Shown: piece after piece, positions 5,119 through 42,485 of the stretch
Numbering within the stretch: position 1 is the stretch's first letter
Layout: each line of letters opens with the position of its first letter
Assembly (NCBI GenBank): GCA_030706605.1
Contig: JAUZOE010000023.1
Coordinates: 1 to 59,000, forward strand
DNA: 59,000 nt
Source: Bacteroidota bacterium
GTDB lineage: Bacteria > Bacteroidota > Bacteroidia > Chitinophagales > Chitinophagaceae
Direction of reading: 5' to 3'
Position numbers and translations under genes: made by a program
Notes under the pieces: generated by a model
What the model saw: only the letters and a program-made list of their open reading frames with translations
Database searches by the model: none
Told to the model about the DNA's origin: nothing

Positions 5119-8100
5119 CTAATAGATTGCTTTCAGCACTTTCACACTGCCATCAGGTAGGGCTACCTCAAGCTGGTATATACCCTTTGCCAGGGTAGCG
5201 CCTGGCTGAATCAGTTCGGTACTGTTTCCCCCGGGATGATTGATCTGTTTCTGCAGCATCACCTGTCCCAGTTTATTGAGCAAACGGATAATATACTTTC
5301 CTTCGGGCTGGTTCTCCAGTTGAAGATGTATGATACCATCCGTTACCGGGTTGGGATAAATGGCGATATCCTGTTTCAGGACAGGCACCCATACTTTTAC
5401 TACCGGGCTATATGTGACAGATCCATTGATATCAATACTCTTAATGCGGTAATAATGATAACCCGGTGTGGCATTTTTATCCAGCCAACTGTAAGCCACG
5501 ACTCCCGTATTGTTTGCAGAAAGAATTGCTACCTGGTTAAACGCGCTGCCATTCATTGATTGCTCCACTTCATACTGTTTCATATTGCTTTCATTTTCCA
5601 CTTTCCACGCTACTGTTATATCAGCATTCTTAAGAGTCGCATTTACAGAAACAAATGTTACGGGTAATGGGCCTTCCATTGGTGCAAATACAATACGGAA
5701 ACGATTGGCAGCGAAAGAACCTGCTGCGCTGGTAACACTAAAATTCAGGGTAGTAGATCCTTCCAGGTTCAGCGGCGTTTGTGTATGCAGGTAGGTATCT
5801 TCTATAAATCCTTGGAGGCCCCGGGCTGACAGGTTTTGTGCTGTAAAAACCAATCGATAGGACTGAGCTTTCACCCCGGTAAGATTAAAGAAAACCGTAT
5901 CGGATTTTCCGAGCATCTGTCTTCTTTCCAGGACAAGATATTTTCCGCCGGATTTTACAGACAGGTTTTCAGAACTGTTATACATTTTTTTTGCATCCAT
6001 TCTATCAATAGCATTACTGTAATCACCACTAAACTGCTGCAAGGTACCATCATCAAGAATGGCACTATCGGCATTGACGCTGTATAAATTAGTGCGTAAT
6101 TGGGCTATTCTGCCCGAAGTACCTTGTGGTCTGAAATAGCTGACCGTACTTCCATTTGATTTTGAGGCTTCGGTAAAATTAATACTTCCGGCTGTTGGCA
6201 TCGTCTGTACAAAAAATGCCTGCCCACTTTGGATGAAGTTATTTGGGATAAGAGATGGAATACTCACATAGTCAACTCCGTCAAAAAAATAAGTTTCATA
6301 TTTACCATACCCATAGCCACCTATTGAATTAGGATTCCAAAGATAAAAGAAACCAGAACCCGTTGTCTGAGTTACATTTCTCATATCAATTGCAGAGGCA
6401 TAGGGATTGCCTATAGAAGCAAATGAATTATCACCTGCGAGTGGAATACTTACATCACCGGTAAACAGAGTCCCCTTTGTCCTCAATATAGTATTATTGG
6501 GAGTGGTTACTGTTGTTCCGTTGACACTCCTGTCGCCCCTGACAAAGAGCATATACCCTTTTGAATTATAAATAGAATTCCCGGTATTGGTAATTCCTGT
6601 CCAGCCCAATGAATTTGAAGGATCATAATATTTCATCGAAGGACTCACAGAATACATATCAAACCCGGCCCCGTTGCCTCCCGGCCCCGTTACCTGGGTA
6701 CCATAACCCGTAGATAGTTTAGAACCGCCTTCCATCCAGCTATTAAATACAGATTGGCCTGTTGTGGGCACTGCCAGGAATTCCCAGGTCTTGGCATGCT
6801 GGCCTGAACCAGTCCCTAAATTAATGTAACGTTCTACAATTACTTTCCCGGTAATGGTATTTCCTGCAGCAAGTGCACCTACATTAGCGGTAGCTGTATC
6901 AGATGATTTCAGGGCGATATTATCCCCGGTATTTAATTGTGCTGTGGAGGAACCAAAAGAAAGACTGCCCAAAATATTCAGGGTATCATTTAAGGTGTTT
7001 GCAACATCAACATCATTGCTGATGGTAAGGTTTTTTAGATTCCTGTTTTTAAACATACTCCCTGCAATAGTTTGTGTTGATGTTCCATTCAAAACCAGAG
7101 TGCCATTACCGGCATCGAATGTGCCGTTATTAGTAATGGATCCTGCTATTTGCAGAACACCGGTTCCATTAACCGTTAAGGTTGCTCCTGATAAAATCTG
7201 AAGATTTTTTATAGTAGCCACCGGAGTGTTACTTAACACGGGCTTACGAGTAACTGAAGGAATATATACATCCGGGCAAGTAGTAGAAGGAAGTTGGTTA
7301 TCTGACCAGTTGGAAGCCGTATTCCAGTCGGAACTGGTATTTCCTGTCCATAAATTATGAAATGAAACTACCGCACTTCCCTGAGCACCCCAGCAACCAC
7401 TTGCTTCTGCCCTGAAATAATAGGTCCCCGCATTACTTACCGATTGTGGATTGCCTGGTATAGCGGTGGAAGTTCCATTGGAAGAAGTTCCCTGGAAATA
7501 GATATTTCCACTTCCTCCGGTGCCGGCTGTTAAAGTAGTTGAATTGCTGCATAAAGAAGTGCCCCCACCGGTAACGATTACAGGTGCCGGTATCGGGTTA
7601 ACAGTTATATTTAAGGTTTTTGTCAGAAGAGGATATGAATCACCATGCTTGTAAACTTTACAGGTTATCGTATAGATTTTAACAGAAGTTGAATTCACCG
7701 CCGTAACAGTAGCTGTTTTAGCTGTATTAAAATTCGAATTATTAGCAGGTGATATGCTGCCTCCACTATTAACCGACCAAGAACAATCATAAGAATAGGT
7801 ATTATTAGGAGGCGTTAAAGTGGCCGTTATAGTGGTACCATAACAAACCGGGGAACCAGTTGATGAAGAAAGAGTAAATGCAGGTAAGCCGCCCATGCCA
7901 TTGAATTCCTCAAATGAAAAATCTCCATTATTAGCATGATCACTTTGTACCGCAATAAAGACATTGCCAATATAAAGGCGGGTTGCCCCATTACCATTAC
8001 CTGCAGTAGGTTGAAGACCTCCAGTGGAACCAGCATTATTGATGACAAAACTTATACCACTTGCAAATTTTAAATCGTAATTCCCGGTCCAATAAATCTG

Positions 8101-25364: not shown

Positions 25365-25435
25365 GGTCCTGTGGCCGAGTGGCTAGGCAAAGCTCTGCAA
25401 AAGCTTCTACAGCGGTTCGAATCCGCTCGGGACCT
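25365..25435 (+). tRNA. tRNA-Cys (anticodon GCA)
   Basis: A complete cloverleaf can be drawn. The acceptor stem is GGTCCTG paired with CGGGACC (one G-U pair). The D arm is GCC...GGC. The anticodon stem AAGCT/AGCTT encloses the loop CTGCAAA, giving anticodon GCA. The T arm is AGCGG-TTCGAAT-CCGCT. The discriminator base is U, as expected for cysteine tRNA. CCA is not encoded. A promoter element lies upstream and a terminator hairpin just downstream. Confidence 0.97.
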
Positions 25436-25438
25436 CTT

Positions 25439-25475
25439 AAGAAGGGATTATCTATTGATAATCCCTTCTTAATTT
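25439..25475 (+). terminator. tRNA-Cys terminator
   Basis: A perfect 14-bp stem (AAGAAGGGATTATC and its complement, TATT loop, 25439-25470) is followed by AATTTTCT. It starts four bases after the tRNA. Confidence 0.85.
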
Positions 25476-25758
25476 TCTCCTATCCACAGTGCTTATGATT
25501 GGATTTCAAATGTTTAATAGGATTCCCTTTTATCTATATGTGTCATTATTTCCCGCCTATTGCTATTTTAAAAGGCTTCCAAAATAGTGGAAATCTGGCA
25601 GCATTCAACTTTAACCCGTATTTTAAAAGGCAAAAAGAATAGGCTGTTAAATTTCGAACTCTTCTACAAAAATAATCTGAATAAATAATCTTATAAATTT
25701 CTTACAAAAATCAAGACTCGATAAAATCAGATTTCAACCAATTATTTTTTTAAATAAA

Positions 25759-25792
25759 TGATACCAATCAAGCATTTGAATGATGCCAATCA
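25759..25792 (+). promoter_or_regulatory. Tandem FNR/CRP-type operator pair upstream of usp and the N-ATPase
   Basis: Two exact TGAT-N4-ATCA palindromes lie at 25759-25770 (spacer ACCA) and 25781-25792 (spacer GCCA). Their centres are 22 bp apart, about two helical turns. The flanking bases are also repeated (CATTTGAATGAT / CATTTAG). The half-site is that of FNR-like members of the CRP/FNR family (TTGAT-N4-ATCAA). A TAAATTCG element at 25816-25823, one mismatch from the Bacteroidota -7 consensus, would put the transcript start near 25828 and the proximal box near -41.5. The regulator itself is not in the window. Confidence 0.65.
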
Positions 25793-25815
25793 GCATTTAG
25801 TTGCATGATTACAAA

Positions 25816-25823
25816 TAAATTCG
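25816..25823 (+). promoter_or_regulatory. Candidate -7 element of the usp / N-ATPase cluster
   Basis: TAAATTCG matches TAnnTTTG at all but one position. It lies 21 bp upstream of the usp ATG and at the right distance from the proximal FNR-type box for activation from about -41.5. Confidence 0.4.
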
Positions 25824-25844: not shown

Positions 25845-28122
<2,278 letters not shown>

Positions 28123-28130
28123 TAATCTTG

Positions 28131-28165
28131 ACCCCCTCTCCCGAGAAAGAGGGGTTGGGATGAGG
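28131..28165. repeat. Palindromic repeat inserted at the atpD-atpC junction
   Basis: A GC-rich segment with 7-bp arms CCCCTCT (28133-28139) and AGAGGGG (28148-28154), followed by TTGGGATGAGG, lies just after the atpD stop. Elements of the form CCCCTCTCC...AGAGGGG-TGGG-TGAGG are familiar dispersed repeats in Bacteroidota genomes. It is read in frame as DPLSRERGVGMRP if atpC is started at 28112, a sequence unlike the rest of the protein. No second copy is in the window. Confidence 0.65.
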
Positions 28166-28195
28166 CCAAAAAACAAGATGATGCAAGACACGTTA

Positions 28196-28582
28196 ATGAA
28201 TCTGAAAATATTACTTCCCTTTAAAGTGTTTGCAGAAATAAAAAATGTAAAAAGAATTGTTGTTGAAACAAGTGCCGGCTCATTTGGGCTTTTACCGCAA
28301 AGGCTTGATTGTACCGCATCATTGGTGCCTGGCATTTTTTTATATGAAACCCAAAGTGAAGGTGTGAAGTATATAGCATTAGATGAAGGCATCATGATAA
28401 AGGCTGGCCCGGAGGTGCTTGTGTCAGTAAGAAATGCAATTGGAGATGCACCGCTTGGAAAGCTTCGTTCTTTGGTTGAAGAAGAAATGATGCAGCTGGA
28501 TGAAAGAGAAATAAATACCCGTTCTGCTATGGCGAAATTAGAAAGCGGCTTTATACGTAACATTCAAAAATTAAGAAGATAG
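28196..28582 (+). CDS. atpC: N-type ATPase F1 epsilon subunit
   Basis: The product from the ATG at 28196 is 128 residues, beginning MNLKILLPFKVF, the usual N-terminus of N-ATPase epsilon subunits. A beta-sandwich domain follows (VETSAGSFGLLPQRLDCTASLVPG), with a C-terminal helical hairpin. Epsilon forms the central stalk with gamma and regulates ATP hydrolysis. The frame is open upstream to an ATG at 28112 that overlaps atpD, and further ATGs lie at 28160, 28178 and 28181. The extra N-terminal stretch is encoded largely by the inserted repeat at 28131-28165 and does not look like family sequence, so I favour a start after the repeat. The reader should treat the exact start as open. Confidence 0.85.
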   Translation: MNLKILLPFKVFAEIKNVKRIVVETSAGSFGLLPQRLDCTASLVPGIFLYETQSEGVKYIALDEGIMIKAGPEVLVSVRNAIGDAPLGKLRSLVEEEMMQLDEREINTRSAMAKLESGFIRNIQKLRR

Positions 28583-28585
28583 TAA

Positions 28586-28909
28586 GTGGAACATGAACGA
28601 CCATATAAAAAAAAATCTTTCAGCAATGAGGTTGGCGAAAAAGAAAAAAGACGGTTACAGGCACAACTTGAAAAAAAAAGTGTGTGGGCAGGTTTGGGTT
28701 TATACGGAATGGTGGGTTGGTCTGTTGTAATACCTACTTTATTGGGTGCGGCATTCGGCCTTTGGCTCGATAGAAAATATAAAGTTAGTTTTTCATGGAC
28801 ACTTAGTTTGTTGATCACGGGGTTAATGATTGGCTGCCTGATTGCGTGGAACTGGATAAATAAAGAAAATAAAGAAATACATAAAAAAAACGAAGATGAA
28901 AATGAATGA
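28586..28909 (+). CDS. atpQ: N-type ATPase subunit AtpQ (AtpI-like)
   Basis: This 107-residue protein has a charged N-terminus (EKEKRRLQAQLEKK) and two membrane helices (GLYGMVGWSVVIPTLLGAAFG and LSLLITGLMIGCLIAWNW) joined by LWLDRKYK. It belongs to the small AtpI-like or gene 1-type proteins (PF09527). In N-ATPase operons this place is held by atpQ. A role in assembly of the c-ring or in divalent cation handling has been proposed for relatives. The start is a GTG three bases after the atpC stop. The end overlaps atpR by 14 bp. Confidence 0.85.
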   Translation: MEHERPYKKKSFSNEVGEKEKRRLQAQLEKKSVWAGLGLYGMVGWSVVIPTLLGAAFGLWLDRKYKVSFSWTLSLLITGLMIGCLIAWNWINKENKEIHKKNEDENE

Positions 28910-29216
28910 AGTTTTAAATATGCTCTCCGCATTAATTGCAGGAGTTATTTTAGGTATTATATTTTTTGGCGGCCTCTGGATAACCACACAAAAAGGATTG
29001 CGTTCAAAAAGACCTGCCCTGGTATTTACCGGGAGCTTTATTATAAGGATGACAATTATACTTGTGGGATTTTATTTTATAGGCCAAAATAGCTGGCAAA
29101 AATTACTCACTTGCCTTGCAGGTTTTTTGGTTGCAAGAGTTGTAATTGTCCGGCTTACGCAAAAAGATAATCATTCGAAAACTACTCTTATAAAGGAGGT
29201 GCCCCATGAGGCTTAG
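28896..29216 (+). CDS. atpR: N-type ATPase subunit AtpR
   Basis: The product is 106 residues with three hydrophobic segments: MLSALIAGVILGIIFFGGLW, then IIRMTIILVGFYFIG, then LLTCLAGFLVARVVIV. AtpR occurs only in N-ATPases. Arginine 51 at the start of the second helix and the arginine in the third (VARVVIV) fit the membrane arginines reported for this subunit, which may interact with the extra carboxylate of the c subunit; that role is inference. The gene overlaps both neighbours (atpQ by 14 bp, atpB by 11 bp), consistent with coupled translation. Confidence 0.88.
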   Translation: MKMNEVLNMLSALIAGVILGIIFFGGLWITTQKGLRSKRPALVFTGSFIIRMTIILVGFYFIGQNSWQKLLTCLAGFLVARVVIVRLTQKDNHSKTTLIKEVPHEA

Positions 29217-29913
29217 TCCCGACCAAAAGATTTTCTGGCAGCATGGGTTTATAAATATAAACCTTACTATAGTTACTACATGGGCGCTGATGATTATCCT
29301 GGTATTGGGCGCAAAGCTCATTAACCGTAAATTAAAATCAGAAATTAAAACTACCCGCTGGCAAAATATCCTGGAGATGCTGGTTATCGGCATGAGAGAC
29401 CAGATAAAAGACGTGGGGTTAAATAAACCTGAAAAGTATATTGGCTTCATTGGTACGATGTTCCTGTTTATTGTTACATCAAACCTTTGTACCATATTTC
29501 CATGGTATGAGCCACCAACAGGTTCACTTTCTACTACAGCAGCGCTCGCTATTTGTGTGTTTATTGCGGTACCCTTTTTTGGAATTGCAGAACGTGGAAT
29601 AAAGGGATACCTGCGATCTTATTTACAGCCCAGTTTTATCATGCTTCCTTTTAATATCATCAGTGAACTTTCACGAACACTCGCATTGGCAGTAAGGTTA
29701 TTTGGCAACATTATGAGTGGTGGATTAATCATAACCATCCTGCTTTCAATTGCGCCTTTCTTTTTCCCGATAGTGATGAGCGCCCTTGGCATGCTAACAG
29801 GAATGGTGCAGGCATACATATTTGCAATACTCGCCACGGTTTATATAACTGCGGCCACACAGGAGGTAAAAAAGAAAAAAATTAAAACTTTAAAAAAGAT
29901 ACAAAATGGATAG
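29206..29913 (+). CDS. atpB: N-type ATPase FO a subunit
   Basis: This 235-residue membrane protein provides the ion half-channels. Five or so hydrophobic segments are visible. The key motif ELSRTLALAVRLFGNIMSGG places the essential stator arginine at residue 164, the counterpart of Arg210 in E. coli. The final helices read FFFPIVMSALGMLTGMVQAYIFAILATVYI, including the usual Q-AYIFA element (written in two parts here: GMLTGMVQAY and IFAILATVYI). It overlaps atpR at the 5' end and atpE at the 3' end. Confidence 0.94.
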   Translation: MRLSPDQKIFWQHGFININLTIVTTWALMIILVLGAKLINRKLKSEIKTTRWQNILEMLVIGMRDQIKDVGLNKPEKYIGFIGTMFLFIVTSNLCTIFPWYEPPTGSLSTTAALAICVFIAVPFFGIAERGIKGYLRSYLQPSFIMLPFNIISELSRTLALAVRLFGNIMSGGLIITILLSIAPFFFPIVMSALGMLTGMVQAYIFAILATVYITAATQEVKKKKIKTLKKIQNG

Positions 29914-30175
29914 TACAACTATTATTGCAGTAGCATCAATTGTTACTGCCGGGCTTACAACAGGCATTGGATGTATGATGCCTGCATTAGGTGAAGGAAA
30001 ATCGATTTCGTCAGCATTAAGTTCAATAGCGCAGCAACCCGATGCTTCCTCTACCATTACACGTACATTATTCGTAGGACTGGCAATGATCGAATCAACA
30101 GCCATCTATTGTTTCGTGGTGTCGATGATCCTCATTTTTGCCAATCCTTTCTGGAATCATTTTATCGCTAAATAA
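29906..30175 (+). CDS. atpE: N-type ATPase FO c subunit (rotor ring)
   Basis: The 89-residue hairpin has two helices. The first carries PALGEG with Glu30, the loop reads IAQQPD, and the second helix carries MIESTAIY with Glu63, Ser64, Thr65 and Tyr68. The E-S-T-x-x-Y set is the usual Na+-coordinating signature of c subunits. The extra carboxylate in the first helix is typical of N-ATPase c subunits. Both point to Na+ as the likely ion, although at least one N-ATPase ring has been described as H+-type, so this needs a direct test. Confidence 0.94.
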   Translation: MDSTTIIAVASIVTAGLTTGIGCMMPALGEGKSISSALSSIAQQPDASSTITRTLFVGLAMIESTAIYCFVVSMILIFANPFWNHFIAK

Positions 30176-30187
30176 TTTTTATAAATT

Positions 30188-30973
30188 ATGCAGATCAACT
30201 GGTTTACAGTTATAGCACAGGTAATTAATTTTCTTATTCTCGTTTGGTTACTAAAGCGGTTTTTATACAAGCCGGTTTTAAACGCTATTGATGAAAGAGA
30301 AAAAAAGATTGCAGATCAACTGAATGACGCGGAGGCAAAAAAAGCAGAAGCTCAAAAAGAGCGGGATGAATTTGAACAAAAAAATGAGGATTTTGATAAA
30401 GAACGTGAAGCAAGGCTGGATAAAGTGCAGGAAGATGCAAAAGCAGAAAAGCAGCGGCTATTTGAAGAAGTAAGGACTGAATCAAACACTTTACGGGCTA
30501 AATATGAGACCGCTTTGAAGCAGGAAGAGCAAAATATAGCTGATACGATTAAGCGCAAAACACAGGACGAGGTTTTTGCAATCGCTTCTAAAGCACTTTC
30601 TGATCTTGCTTCAGCAAGCCTTGAGGAACAATTAATAAAAATGTTTGTTAAGCGGATACAGGATTTAAATGAGGAAGAGAAAAAAAATTTTAGGGAAGCA
30701 TTTAGCAATTCCAATACAACCATAATTATAAAAAGCGCTTTTGAATTACAGGCTTCCTCAAAGGAGAACGTTGAAAAAGCTATTAATGAAATAACAGGAA
30801 AAGAAACCAATTTTCAATATCAACCTGTTCCTGAATTAGTAAGTGGTATTGAAATTGATGCGGAGAATTATAAGCTATCATGGAATATTGAATCTTACCT
30901 GGAAGCCCTAAAAAAGAATATTACTGAACCATTAGTTGAAATGCATAAAGAAAAAGAAAATGCAGCCGTATAA
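30188..30973 (+). CDS. atpF: N-type ATPase FO b subunit with delta-like C-terminus
   Basis: The product has 261 residues, well above the roughly 160 of an ordinary b subunit. It has one N-terminal membrane helix ([17 protein letters not shown]), the conserved [15 protein letters not shown] neck, and a long coiled coil rich in Glu, Lys and Ala. A C-terminal domain of about 90 residues ([15 protein letters not shown] onward, then ITGKE, then LVSGIEI) resembles the C-terminal part of the delta subunit. No separate atpH is present in the operon, as is usual in N-ATPases, and this extension probably replaces it as the peripheral stalk contact. Confidence 0.92.
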
Positions 30974-32513
30974 CCTGGATAAAGTAATCACTGATACATT
31001 TACTGAAATAAGTCGCAGCAGGGAAAATTATATACATGGCTTTCAACCACAGGAAAAAGGATCTGTAAAGAACGTATCTTCCGGTATTGCAAAGGTCATC
31101 GGTTTATCAGGAACCGGTTTTGAAGAACTGCTGAAATTCCCAAACAATTTATACGGCATTGCTTTTAACCTAGATGAAACAGAAATAGGTGTTGTGGTGT
31201 TGGGAAATGATGAGCAATTGCAGTCAGGAGATGTTGTTGAAAGAACCAATCGTGTTACAGATATCCCGGTTGGCAATGGCCTCCTGGGCAGAGTGATCAA
31301 TCCATTGGGTGAACCGATGGATGATAAAGGCCCGATAGCATTTACAGTGCGTTTACCTATTGAGAGACCCGCTCCTCCTATCATGAACCGAGAAGCAGTG
31401 AATGTTCCTTTGCAAACAGGTATTAAAGTAATCGATGCACTGATTCCCATCGGGCGTGGCCAGCGCGAATTGATATTAGGCGATCGCCAAACCGGTAAAA
31501 CATCCATTGCCATTGACACTATTTGTAACCAGCGTGATAAAAATGTATTGTGCGTTTATTGCGCCATTGGCCAGCGTGCCTCTTCTGTAGCTAAAGTAAT
31601 TGCACAACTTACTGAAAAGGGTGCCATGGATTATACAACCGTAGTGGTAACCGAAGGAAATAATCCACCAGGCTTACAATACATTACCCCCTATGCCGCT
31701 ACAAGTATTGCAGAATATTTTATGGAACAGGGCCATGATGTTTTGATTGTTTATGACGATCTAACACATCATGCACGGGCTTATCGTGAGTTATCTCTTT
31801 TATTGCGAAGGCCCCCCGGCAGGGAAGCTTTTCCGGGTGATATCTTTTATATTCATTCACGCCTTCTTGAAAGAGCAACTCATTTAAATCAAGAACATGG
31901 CGGTGGATCACTTACGGCACTGCCGATTATAGAAACAGAAGCGCAGGATATTTCAGCATACATTCCTACCAACCTTATTTCAATTACTGACGGGCAAATA
32001 TATCTTTCACCGAAGCTATTTGAAATGGGCATGTTGCCGGCCGTAGATGTGGGAAAATCAGTTTCACGGGTTGGTGGCAAAGCACAATTACAAGCTTACA
32101 ATAAAGTTGCAGGAAATTTAAAGCTTGCCTATGCGCAGTTTGAAGAGCTGGAAACATTTGCCCGCTTTGGCACACGGCTCGATGAAAATACAAGGAAAAC
32201 AATTGAGCATGGAAAAAGGATAAGAGCATGTTTTAAGCAGTCGGAATTGCACCCGGTTCCTGTCCCTGAACAGGTGACTGTTTTGCTGGCATTAACGAAT
32301 GGTTTGTTTGATACTATACCATTGAATAAAATAACTGAAGCAGAAAATTTAGTTCGCGATGCATCAGTGCACTTACCCCCAGGTCTGTTGGAGCGGATAC
32401 AATCTTCTAAACCTTTAAGCAAAAGTGATGAAGAAACCATTTTATCAGTAACAAAGACGGCGCTTCAATCTCTCATTACTATTTCTGAAAACAAAATTAA
32501 TAACAATGAGTGA
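30960..32513 (+). CDS. atpA: N-type ATPase F1 alpha subunit
   Basis: The regulatory nucleotide-binding subunit, 517 residues from the ATG at 30960 ([14 protein letters not shown]). The frame runs up to 30936, but the earlier methionine only adds lysines from inside atpF; the chosen start overlaps the atpF end by 14 bp. Motifs include [18 protein letters not shown] (P-loop), [34 protein letters not shown] and [15 protein letters not shown]. The last matches the alpha signature with the conserved arginine finger. Length and motifs are normal for F-type alpha. Confidence 0.95.
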
Positions 32514-33393
32514 TACATTGGAAAGTTTGCAAAGGAGAAAACAAAGCGCAGGTGAACTGGCATCGGTTGTGCGCACCATGAAAGCAATGGCTGCTTCCAA
32601 TATCAATCAATATGAAATGGCTGTAAAATCCTTGCAGGATTATTATCGTACCATATCACTTGGCATTAATGCCTGTTTCAGGAATAAAAGATTATTAATA
32701 TCTCCCTCTGGTAAAATAGAAAAAAATAAGATACTAACGGTTGCTATTGTTTTTGGATCAGACCAGGGACTTGTGGGAACCTTCAATGATATACTATCCA
32801 CATTTGTTCAACAAACTTTACAAAATATACCCGGCAAAAAAGAAACCTGGGCTGTTGGTGAAAGAGTGTATTCAAGACTGGAAGACGCGGGACTTTCTCC
32901 CAACAAACTTTTTAATGTTCCCAATTCTGTTACCGCAATTACACCCCTGGTGAATGATATTTTGCTAAATAGTGAAGAATACCGTGAAAGCAATCAACTA
33001 TACAGTCTTTACATTTTTCACAATAGTCCATTAAAAGGTGAAGGCTATCAACAGGAAAGTCAAAGATTATTTCCACTTGATAAAAAATGGGAACAGGAAA
33101 TAACAAAGTTACAATGGCCTGCAAAAAATTTACCACAAGTAATTGGTGGCACAGAGAGTGCTTTACACGCATTGATAAAAGAATATTTGTTTGTTTCCAT
33201 TTATAAAGCCTGTGCCGAATCCTTAGCAAGCGAAAATGCCAGCAGGCTGGCAGCTATGGAGCGCGCTGAACAAAATATTGATGACATCTTGGATGATCTT
33301 AAACAAAATTATAACCGTATCCGGCAAAGCACCATAGACGAAGAATTGTTTGATGTAATTGCCGGCTTTGAAGCATTGAAAGATAGGCAATGA
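32506..33393 (+). CDS. atpG: N-type ATPase F1 gamma subunit
   Basis: The 295-residue product forms the central rotor stalk. The N-terminal helix ([28 protein letters not shown], given here in outline: RRKQ...[10 protein letters not shown]) and the C-terminal helix ([19 protein letters not shown], then [19 protein letters not shown]) are the conserved coiled-coil ends. The middle is divergent, as in other N-ATPase gamma subunits. It overlaps atpA by 8 bp and closes the N-ATPase genes. The next gene, glgP, begins 20 bp later on the same strand with no terminator between. Confidence 0.93.
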
Positions 33394-33412: not shown

Positions 33413-35956
33413 ATGAACAACCAGGCATTTAATATAGCCCAGTTATATGGCTCTCTCCCTGAGGATATAGAAGGCCTTGATGATCTTGCTGAACTTGCGC
33501 TCGATATGCGATGGTCATGGAACCATGCTGCAGACGAATTGTGGCAACAACTTGACCCCGATCTCTGGGAACTCACGAATAATCCCTGGATTGTTTTACA
33601 AACGGTCTCCGGTGATAAACTCGGGCAATTGTTAGCTGACAAAGATTTTCGTAAAAAAATGGATGAACTGATCCAATTAAAAGAACATGATGTTGTCAGG
33701 GAAGCATGGTTCCAGAAAAATCACGCAAACTCCCCGCTAACAGGTGTTGCGTATTTCAGTATGGAATTTATGCTTAATGAAGCGCTGCCGATTTATGTCG
33801 GCGGGCTGGGAAATGTAGCAGGTGATCAGCTTAAATCTGCAAGCGATCTTGGCGTGCCAGTTACGGCTGTAGGACTTCTTTACCAACAAGGTTATTTTCA
33901 CCAGCAGATCGATCAATATGGTAATCAGCAGGCACTTTTTCCTTACAACGATCCCGGGCAATTACCGGTCACTCCCTTAAGATTACCCAATGGCGAATGG
34001 CTGCGTATAAAAATAATTTTATCAGGTTACACCGTTTGGTTGCGGACCTGGCAGGTACAGGTAGGACGTATAAAACTGTACCTACTTGATAGTAATGATT
34101 TGGCAAATTTACCCGTTCACCGAGGTATCACAAATGAATTGTATGGAGGCGGACCGGATCTTCGCATTCAACAGGAAATCATCCTCGGAATTGGTGGCTG
34201 GAAATTAATACACGCACTGGATATTCATCCCGAAGTGTGCCATATGAACGAAGGCCACGCAGCCTTTCTCGTATTGGAACGTGCTGCTGATTTTATGAAA
34301 GATAACAATGTTTCTTTCCAACAGGCCCTGGCAGTAACAAGAGCCGGCAACCTGTTTACTACACACACCGCAGTTGCTGCTGGTTTTGATCATTTCGCAC
34401 CTTCGCTAATGTGGCAATTTTTTGGCACTTATTCTAAAGATGAACTTAGAATAGACTTTAATGACCTTCTTGCACTTGGCCGGCAGGATCCCAATAATTA
34501 TTCTGAAAGTTTTAATATGGCTTATCTTGCCATACGGGGAAGCGGAGCAATCAATGGCGTTAGTTCCCTGCATGGTGACGTAAGCAGAAAACTTTTCAGT
34601 CGTCTTTTTCCCCGCTGGCCCAATAATGAGGTACCGGTAGGAGCCGTTACCAATGGTGTCCATATGCCAAGTTGGGATTCTGAAATTGCAGATGCCATCT
34701 GGACACATTCCTGTGGTAAAGACCGTTGGAGAGGAGAGCTTGAAACCCTTGAACAGGATATTTCTTCTATTTCTGATGAGGATTTATGGCAATTCCGAAA
34801 TATTTCAAGAAATGAACTTGTAAGCTTTATTCGTAAAAAATTCGGAAGGCAGGCTACCGTTTCAGGCCGGTCGCCGGAGATCATTGAAATTGCCAAAAAA
34901 GTTTTTAACCCAGGCACTTTAACATTGGGTTTTGCCCGGCGTTTTGTTCCATACAAAAGGCCTAATCTCCTGCTGCATGATAGCGAAAGATTGATTCGTA
35001 TTCTTACCAATCCTTCTCACCCTGTTCAATTAGTCATAGCCGGAAAGGCCCCGCCATATGATGAATCAGGTAAAGCCCTGATTCGCCAATGGGTGCAGTT
35101 TATTCAACAACATAATTTATATAAGCATGTCATTTTTTTAAGTGATTATGATATGCTATTAACAGAGCACCTCGTGCAGGGAGTGGATGTCTGGATCAAT
35201 ACGCCACGAAGGCCATGGGAAGCTTGTGGCACCAGTGGCATGAAGGTTTTGGTGAATGGTGGCATTAACTTGTCGGAGCTGGATGGATGGTGGGCTGAGG
35301 CGTATACAAAAGATATAGGCTGGGCATTGGGTGATGGTCAGGAACATGGAGAGGATCCTGCCTGGGATGATGTAGAAGCCCATGAATTATATGACCTGCT
35401 GGAAAAACAGGTGATACCGGAATTTTATAACCGGAATGAAAGTGGCATACCCACTGCCTGGGTACAAAGAATGCGCAAGAGTATGGCAACATTAACGCCG
35501 CGATTTTCAGCTAACCGGACTGTACGGGAATACGCTGAAAAATATTATTTACCCGCTGCTAACAATTTTTTAAGAAGGGCTGCCAACAAAGGTGCCGACG
35601 GGAAAAAGATCATAGATATACACAATGAGCTCCGTAATAAATGGGGTGGTATACAACTCGAAAAAGTTGTAACAGAAAATATTGAAGACGGATATATTTT
35701 CCAGGTATATGTTCTTTTAAACGGAATTAACCCAGATCATCTTTTGGTAGAGCTTTACGCCGATGAGCTCGCTGGCGGTCTCCCCGAAAAGATAGGAATG
35801 AAATGGGTACCTGCAAATAGTGATCATGGTGAATATTTATATAAGGCAAAGGTTATAACCAGCAGGCCATCAAGTGATTATACTGCACGTATCATTCCAA
35901 ATTACCAGTCTGTCGCTATTCCCCTGGAAGAAAACCTGATTCTATGGCAACGATGA
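33413..35956 (+). CDS. glgP: Alpha-glucan (glycogen) phosphorylase with DUF3417 domain
   Basis: The 847-residue enzyme releases glucose-1-phosphate from glycogen or maltodextrin without spending ATP. The first 110 residues (YGSLPEDIEGL, LDMRWSWNHAADELW) form the DUF3417 domain of the TIGR02094 phosphorylase group. VAYFSMEFMLNEALPIYVGG and HMNEGHAAF are glycogen-phosphorylase-type motifs. GTSGMKVLVNGGINLSELDGWW holds the PLP lysine. It follows atpG by 20 bp and precedes the phosphoketolase gene by 55 bp, so it is probably part of the same transcript. That suggests stored glycogen feeds the phosphoketolase pathway when respiration is limited. Confidence 0.94.
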   Translation: MNNQAFNIAQLYGSLPEDIEGLDDLAELALDMRWSWNHAADELWQQLDPDLWELTNNPWIVLQTVSGDKLGQLLADKDFRKKMDELIQLKEHDVVREAWFQKNHANSPLTGVAYFSMEFMLNEALPIYVGGLGNVAGDQLKSASDLGVPVTAVGLLYQQGYFHQQIDQYGNQQALFPYNDPGQLPVTPLRLPNGEWLRIKIILSGYTVWLRTWQVQVGRIKLYLLDSNDLANLPVHRGITNELYGGGPDLRIQQEIILGIGGWKLIHALDIHPEVCHMNEGHAAFLVLERAADFMKDNNVSFQQALAVTRAGNLFTTHTAVAAGFDHFAPSLMWQFFGTYSKDELRIDFNDLLALGRQDPNNYSESFNMAYLAIRGSGAINGVSSLHGDVSRKLFSRLFPRWPNNEVPVGAVTNGVHMPSWDSEIADAIWTHSCGKDRWRGELETLEQDISSISDEDLWQFRNISRNELVSFIRKKFGRQATVSGRSPEIIEIAKKVFNPGTLTLGFARRFVPYKRPNLLLHDSERLIRILTNPSHPVQLVIAGKAPPYDESGKALIRQWVQFIQQHNLYKHVIFLSDYDMLLTEHLVQGVDVWINTPRRPWEACGTSGMKVLVNGGINLSELDGWWAEAYTKDIGWALGDGQEHGEDPAWDDVEAHELYDLLEKQVIPEFYNRNESGIPTAWVQRMRKSMATLTPRFSANRTVREYAEKYYLPAANNFLRRAANKGADGKKIIDIHNELRNKWGGIQLEKVVTENIEDGYIFQVYVLLNGINPDHLLVELYADELAGGLPEKIGMKWVPANSDHGEYLYKAKVITSRPSSDYTARIIPNYQSVAIPLEENLILWQR

Positions 35957-36010: not shown

Positions 36011-38395
36011 ATGGAAACACAATCTATAGAAACAAAAAAGGAAGAATTATCCAATGATCTCTTACAAAAAATGAACGCTTACTGGCGCGCCGCCAATTAT
36101 CTTTCTGTTGGCCAGATCTATCTCCATGATAACCCACTGATGAAAGAACCGTTAAAAGTGCAACATATTAAAAATATGTTGTTGGGGCACTGGGGTACTA
36201 CGCCAGGGCAAAATTTTATTTATGTGCATCTTAACCGAATCATAAAAAAATATGACCTGGATATGATCTACATTTCGGGCCCCGGCCATGGTGGCCCGGC
36301 CATTGTGGGTAATGTTTATCTTGAAGGGACTTACAGTGAAGTGTATCCTAATATTAGCCAGGACGAAGATGGGTTAAGAAAACTTTTTACCCAGTTTTCC
36401 TTTCCCGGCGGTATCCCCAGCCACGTTTCTCCCGAGTGTCCAGGCTCTATGCATGAAGGCGGCGAATTAGGCTATTCCCTCAGCCATGCCTTTGGCGCTG
36501 TATTTGATAATCCTGAATTAATTGTAAGCTGCGTAGTTGGAGATGGCGAAGCAGAAACAGGGCCTTTGGCTACTGCGTGGCATTCAAATAAATTTCTCAA
36601 CCCGTTAACGGATGGAGTGGTGCTTCCAATCCTGCATCTTAATGGATATAAGATTGCAAATCCAACCGTGCTTGCGAGAATTGGGCACCAGGAACTTGAT
36701 TATTTATTTAAGGGCTATGGATGGAAGCCTTATATTATTGAAGGGGCCGACCCTGAATATATGCATATCGAAATGGCAAAACTTTTGGATAAAGTAATTG
36801 AAGAGATTAAATCTATCAAAGCAGACGCTGCGAAACATCCCGATGGTGACCGCCCGAGGTGGCCAATGATTATTCTCAAATCACCCAAAGGATGGACAGG
36901 TCCAAAGTTCGTTGATGGGTTGCCGGTAGAAGGCACTTTCAGGGCACACCAGGTTCCTATAACAGATCCTGCCACAAACCCTGAACACCTAAAACAACTG
37001 GAAGAATGGCTCAGAAGTTATAAGCCTGAAGAATTATTTGATAATAAAGGAAAATTAAATCAGGAAATAGCAGCGCTAGCGCCTAAAGGATTGCAACGCA
37101 TGGGTGCCAACCCTCATACAAATGGAGGAGCGGTACTTCATGACCTTCATATGCCTGACTTTAGAAATTATGCCTTTGAATTGAAAACCCGTGGTGAAAC
37201 AGGGCCAGGAGATACCAGGATTTTAGGCACTTTTATCAGGGATGTCATTAAGCTAAACCTTGAAAAAAGAAACTTCCGTCTATTTGGCCCCGATGAAACA
37301 TTATCTAACAGGTTAAATGCCGTGTTTGAAGTCACCAATCGCCAATGGGAAGGGGAAACAATAGATATTGATGAGTTCCTTAAAAAAGATGGACGAGTGA
37401 TGGAAATGTTAAGTGAACATCAATGCGAAGGCTGGCTGGAAGGTTATTTACTAACGGGAAGGCATGGATTATTCAATTGCTATGAAGCCTTTATACACAT
37501 CATTGACTCTATGTTCAACCAACATGCCAAATGGTTAAAAGTAACTTCAGAACTAAACTGGCGCAAAAAAATCCCTTCTTTAAATATTCTGCTTGCCTCT
37601 CACGTTTGGCGGCAGGATCATAACGGCTTTACACACCAGGATCCTGGATTTATTGATCACGTAGTAAATAAAAAAGCCTCTGTTGTGCGTGTGTATCTTC
37701 CTCCTGATGCCAATTGTTTGCTATCAGTAATGGATCATTGCTTAAGAAGCCGGCATTATGTTAATGTTATTGTTGCAGGTAAACATCCTTCTCCCCAATG
37801 GCTGTCGATGGATGAAGCAATTGTTCATTGCACCAAAGGAATCGGCATTTGGGAATGGGCAGGAAATGATAGCGGTACTGAACCGGATGTGGTAATGGCC
37901 TGTGCAGGAGACGTACCCACATTAGAAACTATGGCAGCAGTATCTATCCTGAGAGAAAAACTCCCACAATTAAAAATTCGTGTAGTAAATGTAGTTGACC
38001 TGATGAAGCTACAACCTGAAATTGAACACCCGCATGGTTTGAGTGATAAAGATTTTGATGCGTTGTTCACCGAAAACAAACCGGTGATATTTGCTTTTCA
38101 TGCCTATCCATGGCTCATTCATCGGCTTACCTATCGGCGCACCAATCACCATAACATTCATGTTCGCGGCTATAAGGAAGAAGGAACGATTACTACTCCT
38201 TTTGACATGACAGTGATGAACCAAATGGATCGTTGGGACCTGGTGCAGGACGTTATAGACAGGCTTCCCCAGTTGAATGATAAGGCTGATTATTTAAAGC
38301 AGGAAATGAAAGACAAACTGATCGAACATAAAAATTATATCAGGAAGAACGGGATTGATATGCCTGAAGTGAGAAATTGGGAATGGAAAAGCTAA
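36011..38395 (+). CDS. xfp: Xylulose-5-phosphate / fructose-6-phosphate phosphoketolase
   Basis: The 794-residue thiamine-diphosphate enzyme splits xylulose-5-P (and usually fructose-6-P) with phosphate into acetyl-phosphate plus glyceraldehyde-3-P or erythrose-4-P. Conserved segments are present along the chain: [47 protein letters not shown] (ThDP region), [19 protein letters not shown] and the C-terminal [15 protein letters not shown]. The length is normal. It lies between glgP and gpmA. No acetate kinase gene is present nearby to turn acetyl-phosphate into ATP; that step must be encoded elsewhere. Confidence 0.96.
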
Positions 38396-38658: not shown

Positions 38659-39264
38659 ATGCCAGACTTATTAATTATCCGTCATGGACAAAGTGTTTAT
38701 AACCTCGAAAATCGTTTTACCGGTTGGATTGATGTGTCTTTGAGTGAGCAAGGTATTAAAGAAGCAGAGCGAGCAGCAGTTAAGTTGAAAGATTATAAAA
38801 TTGATGTGGCTTATGCCTCAAAACTAAGGCGGGCTATAGATACGCTGAACATCATTCTGAATATGCATAAAAATAAGCACATACCCGTTATTGAAAATGA
38901 GGCCCTGAATGAGAGGAATTATGGAAATCTACAAGGGCTAAATAAAGCGGAGGTAGCGAAACAATATGGAGATGAACAAGTGCATATCTGGAGAAGGAGT
39001 TTTGATATTGCTCCGCCCGGAGGCGAAAGCCTCAAGGATACTTCGGCCCGTGTGATGCCTTATTTCCGTTCCTTTATTTTGCCAGAATTGAGAAAAGGTT
39101 TAAATGTATTAATTGTCGCCCATGGCAATAGTCTCCGAGCTATCATTAAAGAGTTAGACAAAATTAGTGATGAAGATATTGCTAACCTGAATATTGATAC
39201 AGGCAAAATATACCTCTATCGCTTTGATGAAAATTTAAAAATAATTTCCCGAAAAATTTTATGA
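38659..39264 (+). CDS. gpmA: 2,3-bisphosphoglycerate-dependent phosphoglycerate mutase
   Basis: The 201-residue product belongs to the histidine phosphatase superfamily and interconverts 3- and 2-phosphoglycerate. Visible motifs are LIIRHGQSVYNLENRFTGW with the catalytic histidine, SLSEQGIKEA, LRRAIDT, NERNYGNLQGLNK and the second histidine in VAHGNSLRAIIKEL. It is shorter than the roughly 230-250 residues of E. coli GpmA, as is common for Bacteroidota. It belongs functionally with glgP and xfp (lower glycolysis), although the 263-bp gap with decayed sequence leaves co-transcription open. Confidence 0.92.
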   Translation: MPDLLIIRHGQSVYNLENRFTGWIDVSLSEQGIKEAERAAVKLKDYKIDVAYASKLRRAIDTLNIILNMHKNKHIPVIENEALNERNYGNLQGLNKAEVAKQYGDEQVHIWRRSFDIAPPGGESLKDTSARVMPYFRSFILPELRKGLNVLIVAHGNSLRAIIKELDKISDEDIANLNIDTGKIYLYRFDENLKIISRKIL

Positions 39265-39310: not shown

Positions 39311-39334
39311 AAATAATGACAAGTGTCATTATTT
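39311..39334. promoter_or_regulatory. 24-bp palindrome (TGACA-N2-TGTCA core)
   Basis: The arms AAATAATGACA and TGTCATTATTT are perfect complements separated by AG. It ends three bases before an FNR-type box. It could be a dimeric operator. It could also fold as a stem with an AAGT loop followed by TTTTC and act as a weak terminator for gpmA; the sequence does not decide between these. Confidence 0.5.
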
Positions 39335-39337
39335 TCT

Positions 39338-39351
39338 TTGATGACAATCAT
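39338..39351 (+). promoter_or_regulatory. FNR/CRP-type box before the AhpD-like relic
   Basis: TTGAT-gaca-ATCAT matches the FNR consensus TTGAT-N4-ATCAA at nine of ten half-site positions. A -7-like CAAATTTG at 39374-39381 puts the likely transcript start near 39386 and this box close to -41.5, the same geometry as before usp. Confidence 0.6.
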
Positions 39352-39418
39352 TCATTTCTTTTTAGATTTCATACAAATTTGCATTATAAAAAATAAAAAA
39401 AAATTAAACCGAGGTGTC

Positions 39419-39591
39419 ATGAAAACAATAAAAAATTATAAAGAGCATCTTGAGGATATTCAATTACTCATAAGTAATTGCGTGAAACGGTAGCCAAAAG
39501 TAATGAGTGCCTTTGAAGGACTCTAATGAATGCGAGTTTGGAAGATGGCGAACTAAGCAGGAAAAATAAAGAGTTAATATCCCTTGGCATT
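39419..39591 (+). pseudogene. Relic of an AhpD / carboxymuconolactone-decarboxylase-like protein
   Basis: An ATG at 39419 opens MKTIKNYKEHLEDIQLLIS. The homology-like signal then continues in other frames as LRETVAK, KVMSAFEGL and MNASLEDGELSRKNKELISLGI before ending in a stop. The last piece, with KELISLGI, is the conserved core that precedes the catalytic CxxC in AhpD-like proteins. That CxxC part is missing. At least two frameshifts and several stops make this a dead gene. It retains an upstream FNR-type box and -7-like element. Confidence 0.6.
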
Positions 39592-39639
39592 TGAAGTATT
39601 AAGTCAATTTAAAGAAACTAAGTAATCATATATTGAACT

Positions 39640-39647
39640 TACCTTTG
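39640..39647 (+). promoter_or_regulatory. -7 element for the acidic protein gene
   Basis: TACCTTTG is an exact TAnnTTTG match 26 bp upstream of the ATG at 39674. Confidence 0.5.
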
Positions 39648-39673
39648 TTTCTCAATAATCAAAATATAAAAAT

Positions 39674-39946
39674 ATGGACAAGAAAATAAAAAACTTAAAA
39701 GACGATACCGGGGAAGATGAAAAATTCCCTATACCAATTTATAAAAAAGAAGATGATATTTATAGCCAGGAAAAAGAAGAACCTTTTGAGGAAGATGATG
39801 AATTGGGTAATCCGGGAATTAACCTTGATGTGCCGGGATCTGAATTGGATGACGAAGATGAAAAGATTGGTGAAGAAGATGAAGAAAATAATTATTACAG
39901 CCTCGGTGGTGACGAGCATAATGATCTTGAGGAAGACCCCCAGTAA
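39674..39946 (+). CDS. Small highly acidic protein, function unknown
   Basis: The 90-residue product has an extreme excess of Asp and Glu, especially after residue 30 (EEPFEEDDELG, DDEDEKIGEEDEENNYYS, DLEEDPQ). It has no hydrophobic core, signal peptide or cysteine and is probably disordered. The string EENNYYSLGGDEHNDLEE looks like a conserved C-terminal motif seen in small Bacteroidota proteins, which argues that it is real. It has its own promoter element and lies in the FNR-box region, but no function can be given. Confidence 0.7.
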   Translation: MDKKIKNLKDDTGEDEKFPIPIYKKEDDIYSQEKEEPFEEDDELGNPGINLDVPGSELDDEDEKIGEEDEENNYYSLGGDEHNDLEEDPQ

Positions 39947-42383: not shown

Positions 42384-42395
42384 TGATAAACATCA
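42384..42395 (+). promoter_or_regulatory. FNR/CRP-type box upstream of the PNPOx-like gene
   Basis: TGAT-aaac-ATCA is an exact core match. A weak -7 candidate TAGATTTT at 42438-42445 would place the box near -60, a position also used by CRP/FNR activators. It could instead serve the divergent DUF2892 gene. Confidence 0.5.
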
Positions 42396-42485
42396 TTTTA
42401 CAACCTGTTTCATATCATGGTTTTTATTCACTATTGTTAGATTTTTTTTCATAAATTGGATTCAACTTCATCAAAAAAAGAAACC

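Follow-up and report, generated by a model that had tools for sequence, protein, structure and literature searches.

A tandem TGAT-N4-ATCA site upstream of a usp-N-ATPase operon in a Chitinophagaceae genome, its apparent low-oxygen regulon and a candidate receiver-CRP/FNR regulator

In the draft genome of a Chitinophagaceae bacterium (GCA_030706605.1; 4.27 Mb, 71 contigs), a universal stress protein gene (usp) and the N-ATPase operon behind it are preceded by two TGAT-N4-ATCA boxes that almost certainly form a genuine tandem site within a genuine regulon. The window analysed here is one whole contig of this genome (JAUZOE010000023.1, 59,000 nucleotides). In the explanation that we favour, at a probability of roughly two in three, the boxes form a tandem activator site of a low-oxygen regulon, the regulator is a receiver-CRP/FNR fusion protein, and the N-ATPase operon has joined its targets. 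From the boxes, their spacing, the promoter geometry, the regulon membership, the domain make-up of the proteins and the gene neighbourhoods, all read from sequence, we infer binding, activation, a low-oxygen signal, the identity of the regulator and the direction of the ATPase. Two dimers of the CRP/FNR family would occupy the tandem site two helical turns apart on the same face of the DNA. Of these, the dimer on the proximal box (-41.5) would touch RNA polymerase at a TAnnTTTG-dependent promoter, and that on the distal box (-63.5) would stabilise or add to the first. The regulator would be a receiver-cNMP-HTH_Crp fusion, present in a C15 and a C4 copy and phosphorylated by a FixL-like PAS kinase encoded just upstream, so that kinase and fusion would in effect be a FixL-FixJ-FixK chain in which a single protein does duty for both FixJ and FixK.

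The distal box (TGATACCAATCA, 25759-25770) and the proximal box (TGATGCCAATCA, 25781-25792), both listed without strand, are exact TGAT-N4-ATCA palindromes with a centre-to-centre distance of 22 bp (gap 10), as the first-pass annotation of this DNA had reported. A -7 element on the forward strand (TAAATTCG, 25816-25823) starts 23 nt past the proximal box, an offset common to the regulon, and agrees with TAnnTTTG at 5 of its 6 specified positions. In Flavobacterium psychrophilum, TAnnTTTG is placed at -12 to -5 in the available part of PMC9723704, and by this position rule the predicted usp transcription start is 25828 (+ strand), with predicted box centres at about -41.5 and -63.5. The earlier claim that a near-consensus -7 element puts the proximal box near -41.5, the class II position, was borne out, as judged from the -7 position only and with a predicted start. 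The full FNR site is TTGAT-N4-ATCAA. Its TGAT-N4-ATCA core is present exactly in both boxes, the base 5' of TGAT is A in both, and ATCAA occurs in the distal box only. Neither box is therefore a full FNR site, and the assignment to the FNR subgroup holds for the core and fails for the outer bases.

Upstream of the usp promoter, a tRNA-Cys gene (25365-25436, ARAGORN) is followed by a terminator-like hairpin (25437-25472, + strand; 16-pair stem, then a T-rich tail) that would, by its sequence, shield the promoter from upstream reading. Terminator-like sites in the region numbered 18 compared with 13.6 in shuffles, so that any single site is weak evidence; this one had the longest stem. Folding of the predicted usp 5' leader revealed nothing (z +1.43).

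The window contains 7 single TGAT-N4-ATCA boxes; 100 shuffles gave 1.86 on average, and no shuffle had as many as 7. A genome-wide search for exact pairs of boxes, with all gaps of 0-30 allowed, found four, all at gap 10, and the reversed-pattern control gave 0. Pairs with at most one mismatch at gap 10 numbered 13 (control 0), and a relaxed search for TGA-N6-TCA occurring twice at gap 10 returned 20 (reversed control 0). The union of these searches comprised 22 pairs, of which two besides the usp pair lie in the window (at 39317 and, weaker, at 42384).

The 44 sides of the 22 pairs were scanned for TAnnTTTG at offsets 0-91. Exact matches were found at offsets 23 (five), 24 (three) and 84 (one) and nowhere else; the placement of 8 of 9 exact matches at two of 92 offsets has p = 4e-13, assuming that the sides are independent. 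With at most one mismatch, 18 matches lay at offset 23 and 4 at offset 24, the average per offset across the scanned range being 0.80. By this measure 18 of the 22 pairs had a -7 element at 23 or 24, and it was absent there in C39:4678, C7:20006, C16:42384 and C21:15270. An exact box followed by an exact -7 element at 20-27 nt occurred three times in the genome, each time at 23-24 nt and inside a tandem pair. Single-box promoters made of an exact box and an exact -7 element were rejected, this whole-genome search having given tandem sites only, and at that stringency single boxes seem, from the sequence matches, to be unused.

These spacing and offset statistics contradict an origin of the usp boxes in chance or composition, that is, as AT-rich intergenic palindromes without function: exact pairs occur at gap 10 only, with a control of 0, and the -7 offset is fixed. 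The boxes are short, and both lie within an imperfect direct repeat (25757-25798; AATGATRCCAATCA, then GCATTT one base nearer in the second copy) that could stem from local duplication, by which the usp pair may have been born here. We nevertheless regard the chance explanation as close to negligible.

All genes of the downstream operon are on the forward strand. The Usp gene (25845-26663; PF00582, E 4.4e-26) is followed, 13 bp past its stop codon, by the open reading frame of atpD (26677-28122; PF00006), which encodes the N-ATPase beta subunit, and by atpC (28112-28582). Next comes a gene for an AtpI-type small membrane protein (28586-28909; PF09527), which by gene order we take to be atpQ, and then atpR (28896-29216; PF12966, E 1.4e-28), the marker subunit whose match inside the operon identifies it as an N-ATPase operon. 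The genes atpB, atpE, atpF, atpA and atpG (29206-33393), like atpC, were read by eye from open reading frames and gene order. The c subunit (29906-30175) carries the residues P..E and ES-T--Y, presumably the sodium-binding set, and the pump may accordingly be sodium-coupled. The Burkholderia N-ATPase is described as proton-coupled in the available part of PMC5376962.

Nineteen bp past atpG begins the gene for an alpha-glucan (glycogen) phosphorylase (33413-35956; PF00343, PF11897), followed by genes for a phosphoketolase (36011-38395; PF09364/PF09363/PF03894) and a phosphoglycerate-mutase-like histidine phosphatase (38659-39264; PF00300). If respiration failed, glycogen phosphorylase and phosphoketolase would provide ATP, which the N-ATPase would use to sustain the ion gradient. 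The second tandem pair of the window (39317-39350, + strand; 2+0 mismatches) has a -7 element, CAAATTTG, 23 nt later, and no clear target gene was found 3' of it in 39350-39946. That stretch contains a short frame ending at 39493 and, more than 300 bp off, a 90-aa, very acidic open reading frame (39674-39946); the target may be a short or decayed gene, or else the acidic protein. The weaker pair (42384-42417, + strand; 0+1 mismatches) stands before a PNPOx-like gene (PF12900) and is doubtful because its nearest -7-like element is at offset 20, not 23.

Pfam matches were used to identify the genes behind the remaining pairs of the genome. C21 carries a fused CcoN-CcoO of a cbb3 oxidase (COX1+FixO) and a CcoI-type (copper) ATPase, the latter behind a pair without a good -7 element (C21:15270); C17 carries a di-heme cytochrome c peroxidase (CCP_MauG), C4 a PPDK, C67 a second Usp, C28 a BON protein, C39 a cytochrome c, C45 a DUF892 protein and a PAS kinase, and C7 a YceI protein and a heme-type EB_dh protein, the EB_dh pair (C7:20006) again being without a good -7 element. 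Targets in C15 were a cation P-type ATPase, a phospholipase-D-like protein, an L,D-transpeptidase and an erythromycin-esterase-family protein, and a further pair (C15:47062; 2+0 mismatches) precedes a PEP-synthase-like gene beside the kinase-fusion operon described below. The target of the C71 pair had no Pfam match. This gene content is that of a low-oxygen regulon, and low oxygen is the likely signal, an assignment drawn from the content and held with considerable confidence. The proposed members would be the cbb3 oxidase, its copper ATPase, the cytochrome c peroxidase, Usp, PPDK and the cation ATPase, joined by the N-ATPase operon; the rare N-ATPase thus appears to have entered a low-oxygen regulon.

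A stretch of about 19 kb around the kinase-fusion operon (C15:44039-63168) holds 6 of the 22 pairs as well as the weaker 47062 pair, and we consider it a low-oxygen gene island. One of its pairs (C15:44039-44072) is flanked on each side by an exact -7 element at offset 24 and apparently drives two genes that diverge from it, those for a small protein and the L,D-transpeptidase.

The genome has 7 matches to HTH_Crp_2 (PF13545), 6 of them over the cut-off, and 11 to the cNMP domain (PF00027). Two of the proteins are receiver-cNMP-HTH_Crp fusions, encoded at C15:44541-45584 and C4:36147-37199 and 59% identical; in Pfam the C15 copy consists of Response_reg (PF00072), cNMP_binding and HTH_Crp_2. 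Each is encoded behind a PAS-HisKA-HATPase kinase, and FixL was the best PDB match of the PAS domains of both kinases. The receiver domain (PF00072), its phospho-acceptor Asp and the adjoining kinase mark the fusion as a response regulator. Among several candidates the fusion is the best, and we think it the probable regulator. Low-oxygen or redox control of the N-ATPase operon through FNR-type boxes, proposed in the first-pass annotation, was upheld in part: there is a tandem activator-type site before usp and the N-ATPase genes, and the regulon content points to low oxygen, but the regulator is best sought in a receiver-CRP/FNR two-component fusion and not in a classical FNR. The number of CRP/FNR-type matches, the presence of two fusions at 59% identity and a C23 protein with a similar recognition helix (by eye) are also what would be expected if several CRP/FNR proteins shared the tandem sites, N-ATPase expression then integrating phosphorylation with an Fe-S or other signal. 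Such shared occupancy is hypothetical, and we hold it to be quite improbable as compared with control by the fusion.

The tandem architecture was next examined at loci of fusion relatives, fetched by fusion protein with boxes disregarded. The set comprises the best 80 of at least 496 confirmed relatives, including Chitinophaga, Lacibacter, Ferruginibacter, Rufibacter, Pontibacter, Emticicia and many MAGs, and overlaps the 119-genome set used below (L251 is the same stretch as L163 of G090). In these best 80 of at least 496 loci, 70 gap-10 pairs (at most 2 mismatches) were present in 42 loci, compared with 0-13 pairs at each other gap. Of 140 sides, 28 had exact TAnnTTTG at offset 23, compared with an average of 0.11 at offsets outside 22-24; a -7 element stood at 22-24 in 61 of the 70 pairs. 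When contexts that were 70% or more alike were merged in the same best-80 set, 67 pairs remained, 58 of them with a -7 element at 22-24, and 27 of 134 sides had an exact match at 23. A separate count in 33 fetched regions (44 pairs at gap 10 versus 0-5 at other gaps) is biased, the regions having been partly picked for pairs or fusion genes, and our conclusions therefore rest on the 80-locus set and its collapsed version. Behind the pairs of these best 80 of at least 496 loci were, by eye, the same-operon kinase, cco genes, Usp and Hsp20, and pairs just upstream of the fusion gene or kinase were seen by eye in G090, G035, G045, G042 and G015. A steady fall of pair density away from the fusion gene was rejected on account of a second peak at 6-8 kb (fusion gene placed in 64 of the 80 loci).

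An oriented promoter set was assembled from the 70 fusion-locus pairs together with 19 of the 22 pairs in the genome itself; 75 of its 88 promoters had offset 23. In these 75, the base before the distal TGAT was A at a frequency of 0.49, C at 0.31 and T at 0.11, while the proximal ATCA was followed by T at 0.65 and by A at 0.05. A -33 TTG element as a further part of the promoter was discarded, since it lay directly past the proximal box in only 6 of 75.

The fusion protein was recovered by a motif filter from 72 of 82 loci (the 80 and the 2 own), and 66 of the 72 had a kinase-length open reading frame directly upstream on the same strand. Receiver Asp53 and Lys105 were invariant (72/72), but this was largely forced by the motif filter; the recognition-helix Glu and Arg were likewise kept in all 72. 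Position 211, which we take to be that of the cAMP-contact Glu of the GE(L) motif, was Tyr in 61 and His in 11, and control of the fusions in the manner of cAMP-CRP was rejected on the ground of this replacement in 72 of 72. Among the 66 kinases, the aligned position that we take to be that of the FixL proximal heme-His was His in 58, and the presumed distal-Arg position was Arg in 7; at the latter position the two kinases of the genome itself differ, C4 having Arg and C15 Ile. An N-terminal Fe-S cysteine cluster was absent from both own fusions, which begin with the receiver domain and have only Cys 52 (C15) and Cys 18, 51 and 228 (C4).

Among 119 Bacteroidia genomes, own genome included, 38 had at least one pair with a gap of 0-30; the pairs totalled 72, versus 4 for the reversed pattern. 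In the other 118 genomes, 38 of 68 pairs were at gap 10 although 31 gap lengths were allowed, the next commonest being gap 11 with 4 pairs. A full-length fusion was present in 62 of the 119, and 3 more with partial matches (one split by a stop) were counted as without. Gap-10 pairs occurred in 21 of the 62 genomes with a full-length fusion compared with 7 of the 57 without (Fisher p = 0.005), and the other-gap control gave p = 0.064, both without phylogenetic correction; the association across genomes is modest. In a smaller sample of 20 hand-picked genomes, G036, which has no fusion at the threshold used, had 8 relaxed pairs (control 1).

Pairs in genomes without the fusion would also be expected if the promoter logic and low-oxygen regulon were the same, but the binder were an FNR-like protein (C31:19295-19984) with Fe-S oxygen sensing, the fusions controlling other genes or sharing some of the sites. 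This protein has four N-terminal Cys in CNLKSCFLCRNC, kept in the homologues L101 and L102 (protein obtained for 16 of 30 loci), and by eye the Glu and Arg of the recognition helix are both retained in it. Its Fe-S binding is putative, no tandem pair lies near the C31 gene at the thresholds used, and it is the kinase and fusion genes that carry pairs in several genomes. We consider the C31 protein unlikely as the binder and retain the fusion; given the pairs in fusion-free genomes and the existence of this FNR-like protein, more than one regulator may act through tandem sites of this kind.

AtpR matches were obtained in 13 of 393 genomes of the order, 10 of them over the cut-off (own included). 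For comparison of the N-ATPase loci, 13 loci were fetched; 10, in 9 genomes besides our own, were over the AtpR cut-off, one of them (L146) without atpD at hand. The first-pass annotation had made its reading depend on conservation of the boxes in relatives that keep the operon. A pair was found upstream of atpD in 2 of these 10 other loci, G254 (0+0 mismatches) and G376 (0+2 mismatches, about 460 bp before atpD), and 8, including L146, had no pair upstream at up to 3 mismatches. Conservation is thus partial, and the pair is no fixed part of N-ATPase operons. Within the same hand-picked sample, the same-genus genomes G381 and G417, both without an AtpR match, had 21 relaxed pairs (control 0) and 3 relaxed pairs, respectively; the regulon thus occurs without an N-ATPase, and would be older than the place of the N-ATPase in it. 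In G254 (L150) a single pair (5554-5587) separates genes for Usp, a PAS kinase and a receiver-CRP fusion from atpD and is flanked in each direction by a -7 element at offset 23, of which one is exact and the other has 1 mismatch; as an arrangement of sequence this would be the most direct link between candidate regulator, Usp and N-ATPase. Phosphoketolase or glycogen genes adjoin the N-ATPase operons in G376, G311, G231 and G238 (by eye), which suggests a fermentative energy island.

The proposed system would work like FixLJ-FixK and FNR class II promoters, with a site that is not a full FNR site and a likely regulator that is no classical FNR. In the rhizobial FixL/FixJ/FixK2 cascade, FixJ is a separate protein and the targets include cbb3 (fixNOQP-type) oxidase genes. 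Shared with that cascade are a PAS kinase, a receiver domain, a CRP/FNR-type DNA-binding part and cbb3 genes among the targets; here, in contrast, receiver and CRP/FNR parts form one protein without a separate FixJ, the sites are paired at -41.5/-63.5, the FixL distal Arg is mostly absent and the host belongs to the Bacteroidota. FNR/ANR class II promoters have in common with the present ones a box near -41.5, TGAT half-sites and an anaerobic or microaerobic gene set. They differ in that the present sites lack the outer T/A of TTGAT-N4-ATCAA and as a rule include a second box at -63.5, the -7 element is TAnnTTTG and the likely regulator lacks the N-terminal Fe-S cysteine cluster. The DosR/DevR dormancy regulon combines a heme-type kinase and a response regulator with Usp and cation ATPase targets, as is the case here, but DosR is of the NarL type, the present candidate is CRP/FNR, and the boxes are unrelated. 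A further parallel with FNR/ANR control is that in Burkholderia cenocepacia, Usp genes adjoin anr and are induced at low oxygen according to the available part of PMC9104464.

The N-ATPase operons of Burkholderia and cyanobacteria, as far as they are described in the available part of PMC5376962, share with ours the N-ATPase gene set, AtpR and the extra AtpI-type subunit, whereas ours stands behind usp and a tandem-box promoter and is followed by glgP and the phosphoketolase gene. The words 'oxygen', 'anaerobic' and 'hypox' are absent from that paper. In the parts of the open-licence literature searched, no description was found of oxygen control of the N-ATPase or of a receiver-CRP fusion regulon in Bacteroidota.

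We see the chances as evenly balanced for the wider proposal, in which many Bacteroidota would respond to low oxygen through one phosphorylation-controlled CRP/FNR protein that combines FixJ and FixK, with paired dimers on obligatory -41.5/-63.5 sites controlling cbb3 oxidase and, in those that have acquired it, an N-ATPase that keeps the ion gradient on fermentation ATP. If true, a large, poorly charted phylum would have a readable low-oxygen code (boxes 22 bp apart, 23 nt, TAnnTTTG) by which regulons could be read directly off Bacteroidota genomes, the N-ATPase, whose role is unsettled, would be tied to survival when respiration fails, and evolution would have shortened the FixLJ-FixK cascade through fusion of two regulators.

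Two further observations concern the fusion loci. Nearly the same fusion locus and pair were found in L198 and L199, an Azovibrio restrictus MAG and a Bacteroides MAG, so that one of the two bin labels, if not both, is probably wrong. A small protein is encoded convergently to the kinase-fusion operons (C15:44114-44539, C4:37203-37586 and L150:1209-1625). The C15 and L150 copies were scanned and had no Pfam match, similar small proteins were seen by eye behind tandem pairs in several fusion loci, and the protein is a possible candidate partner of the system.
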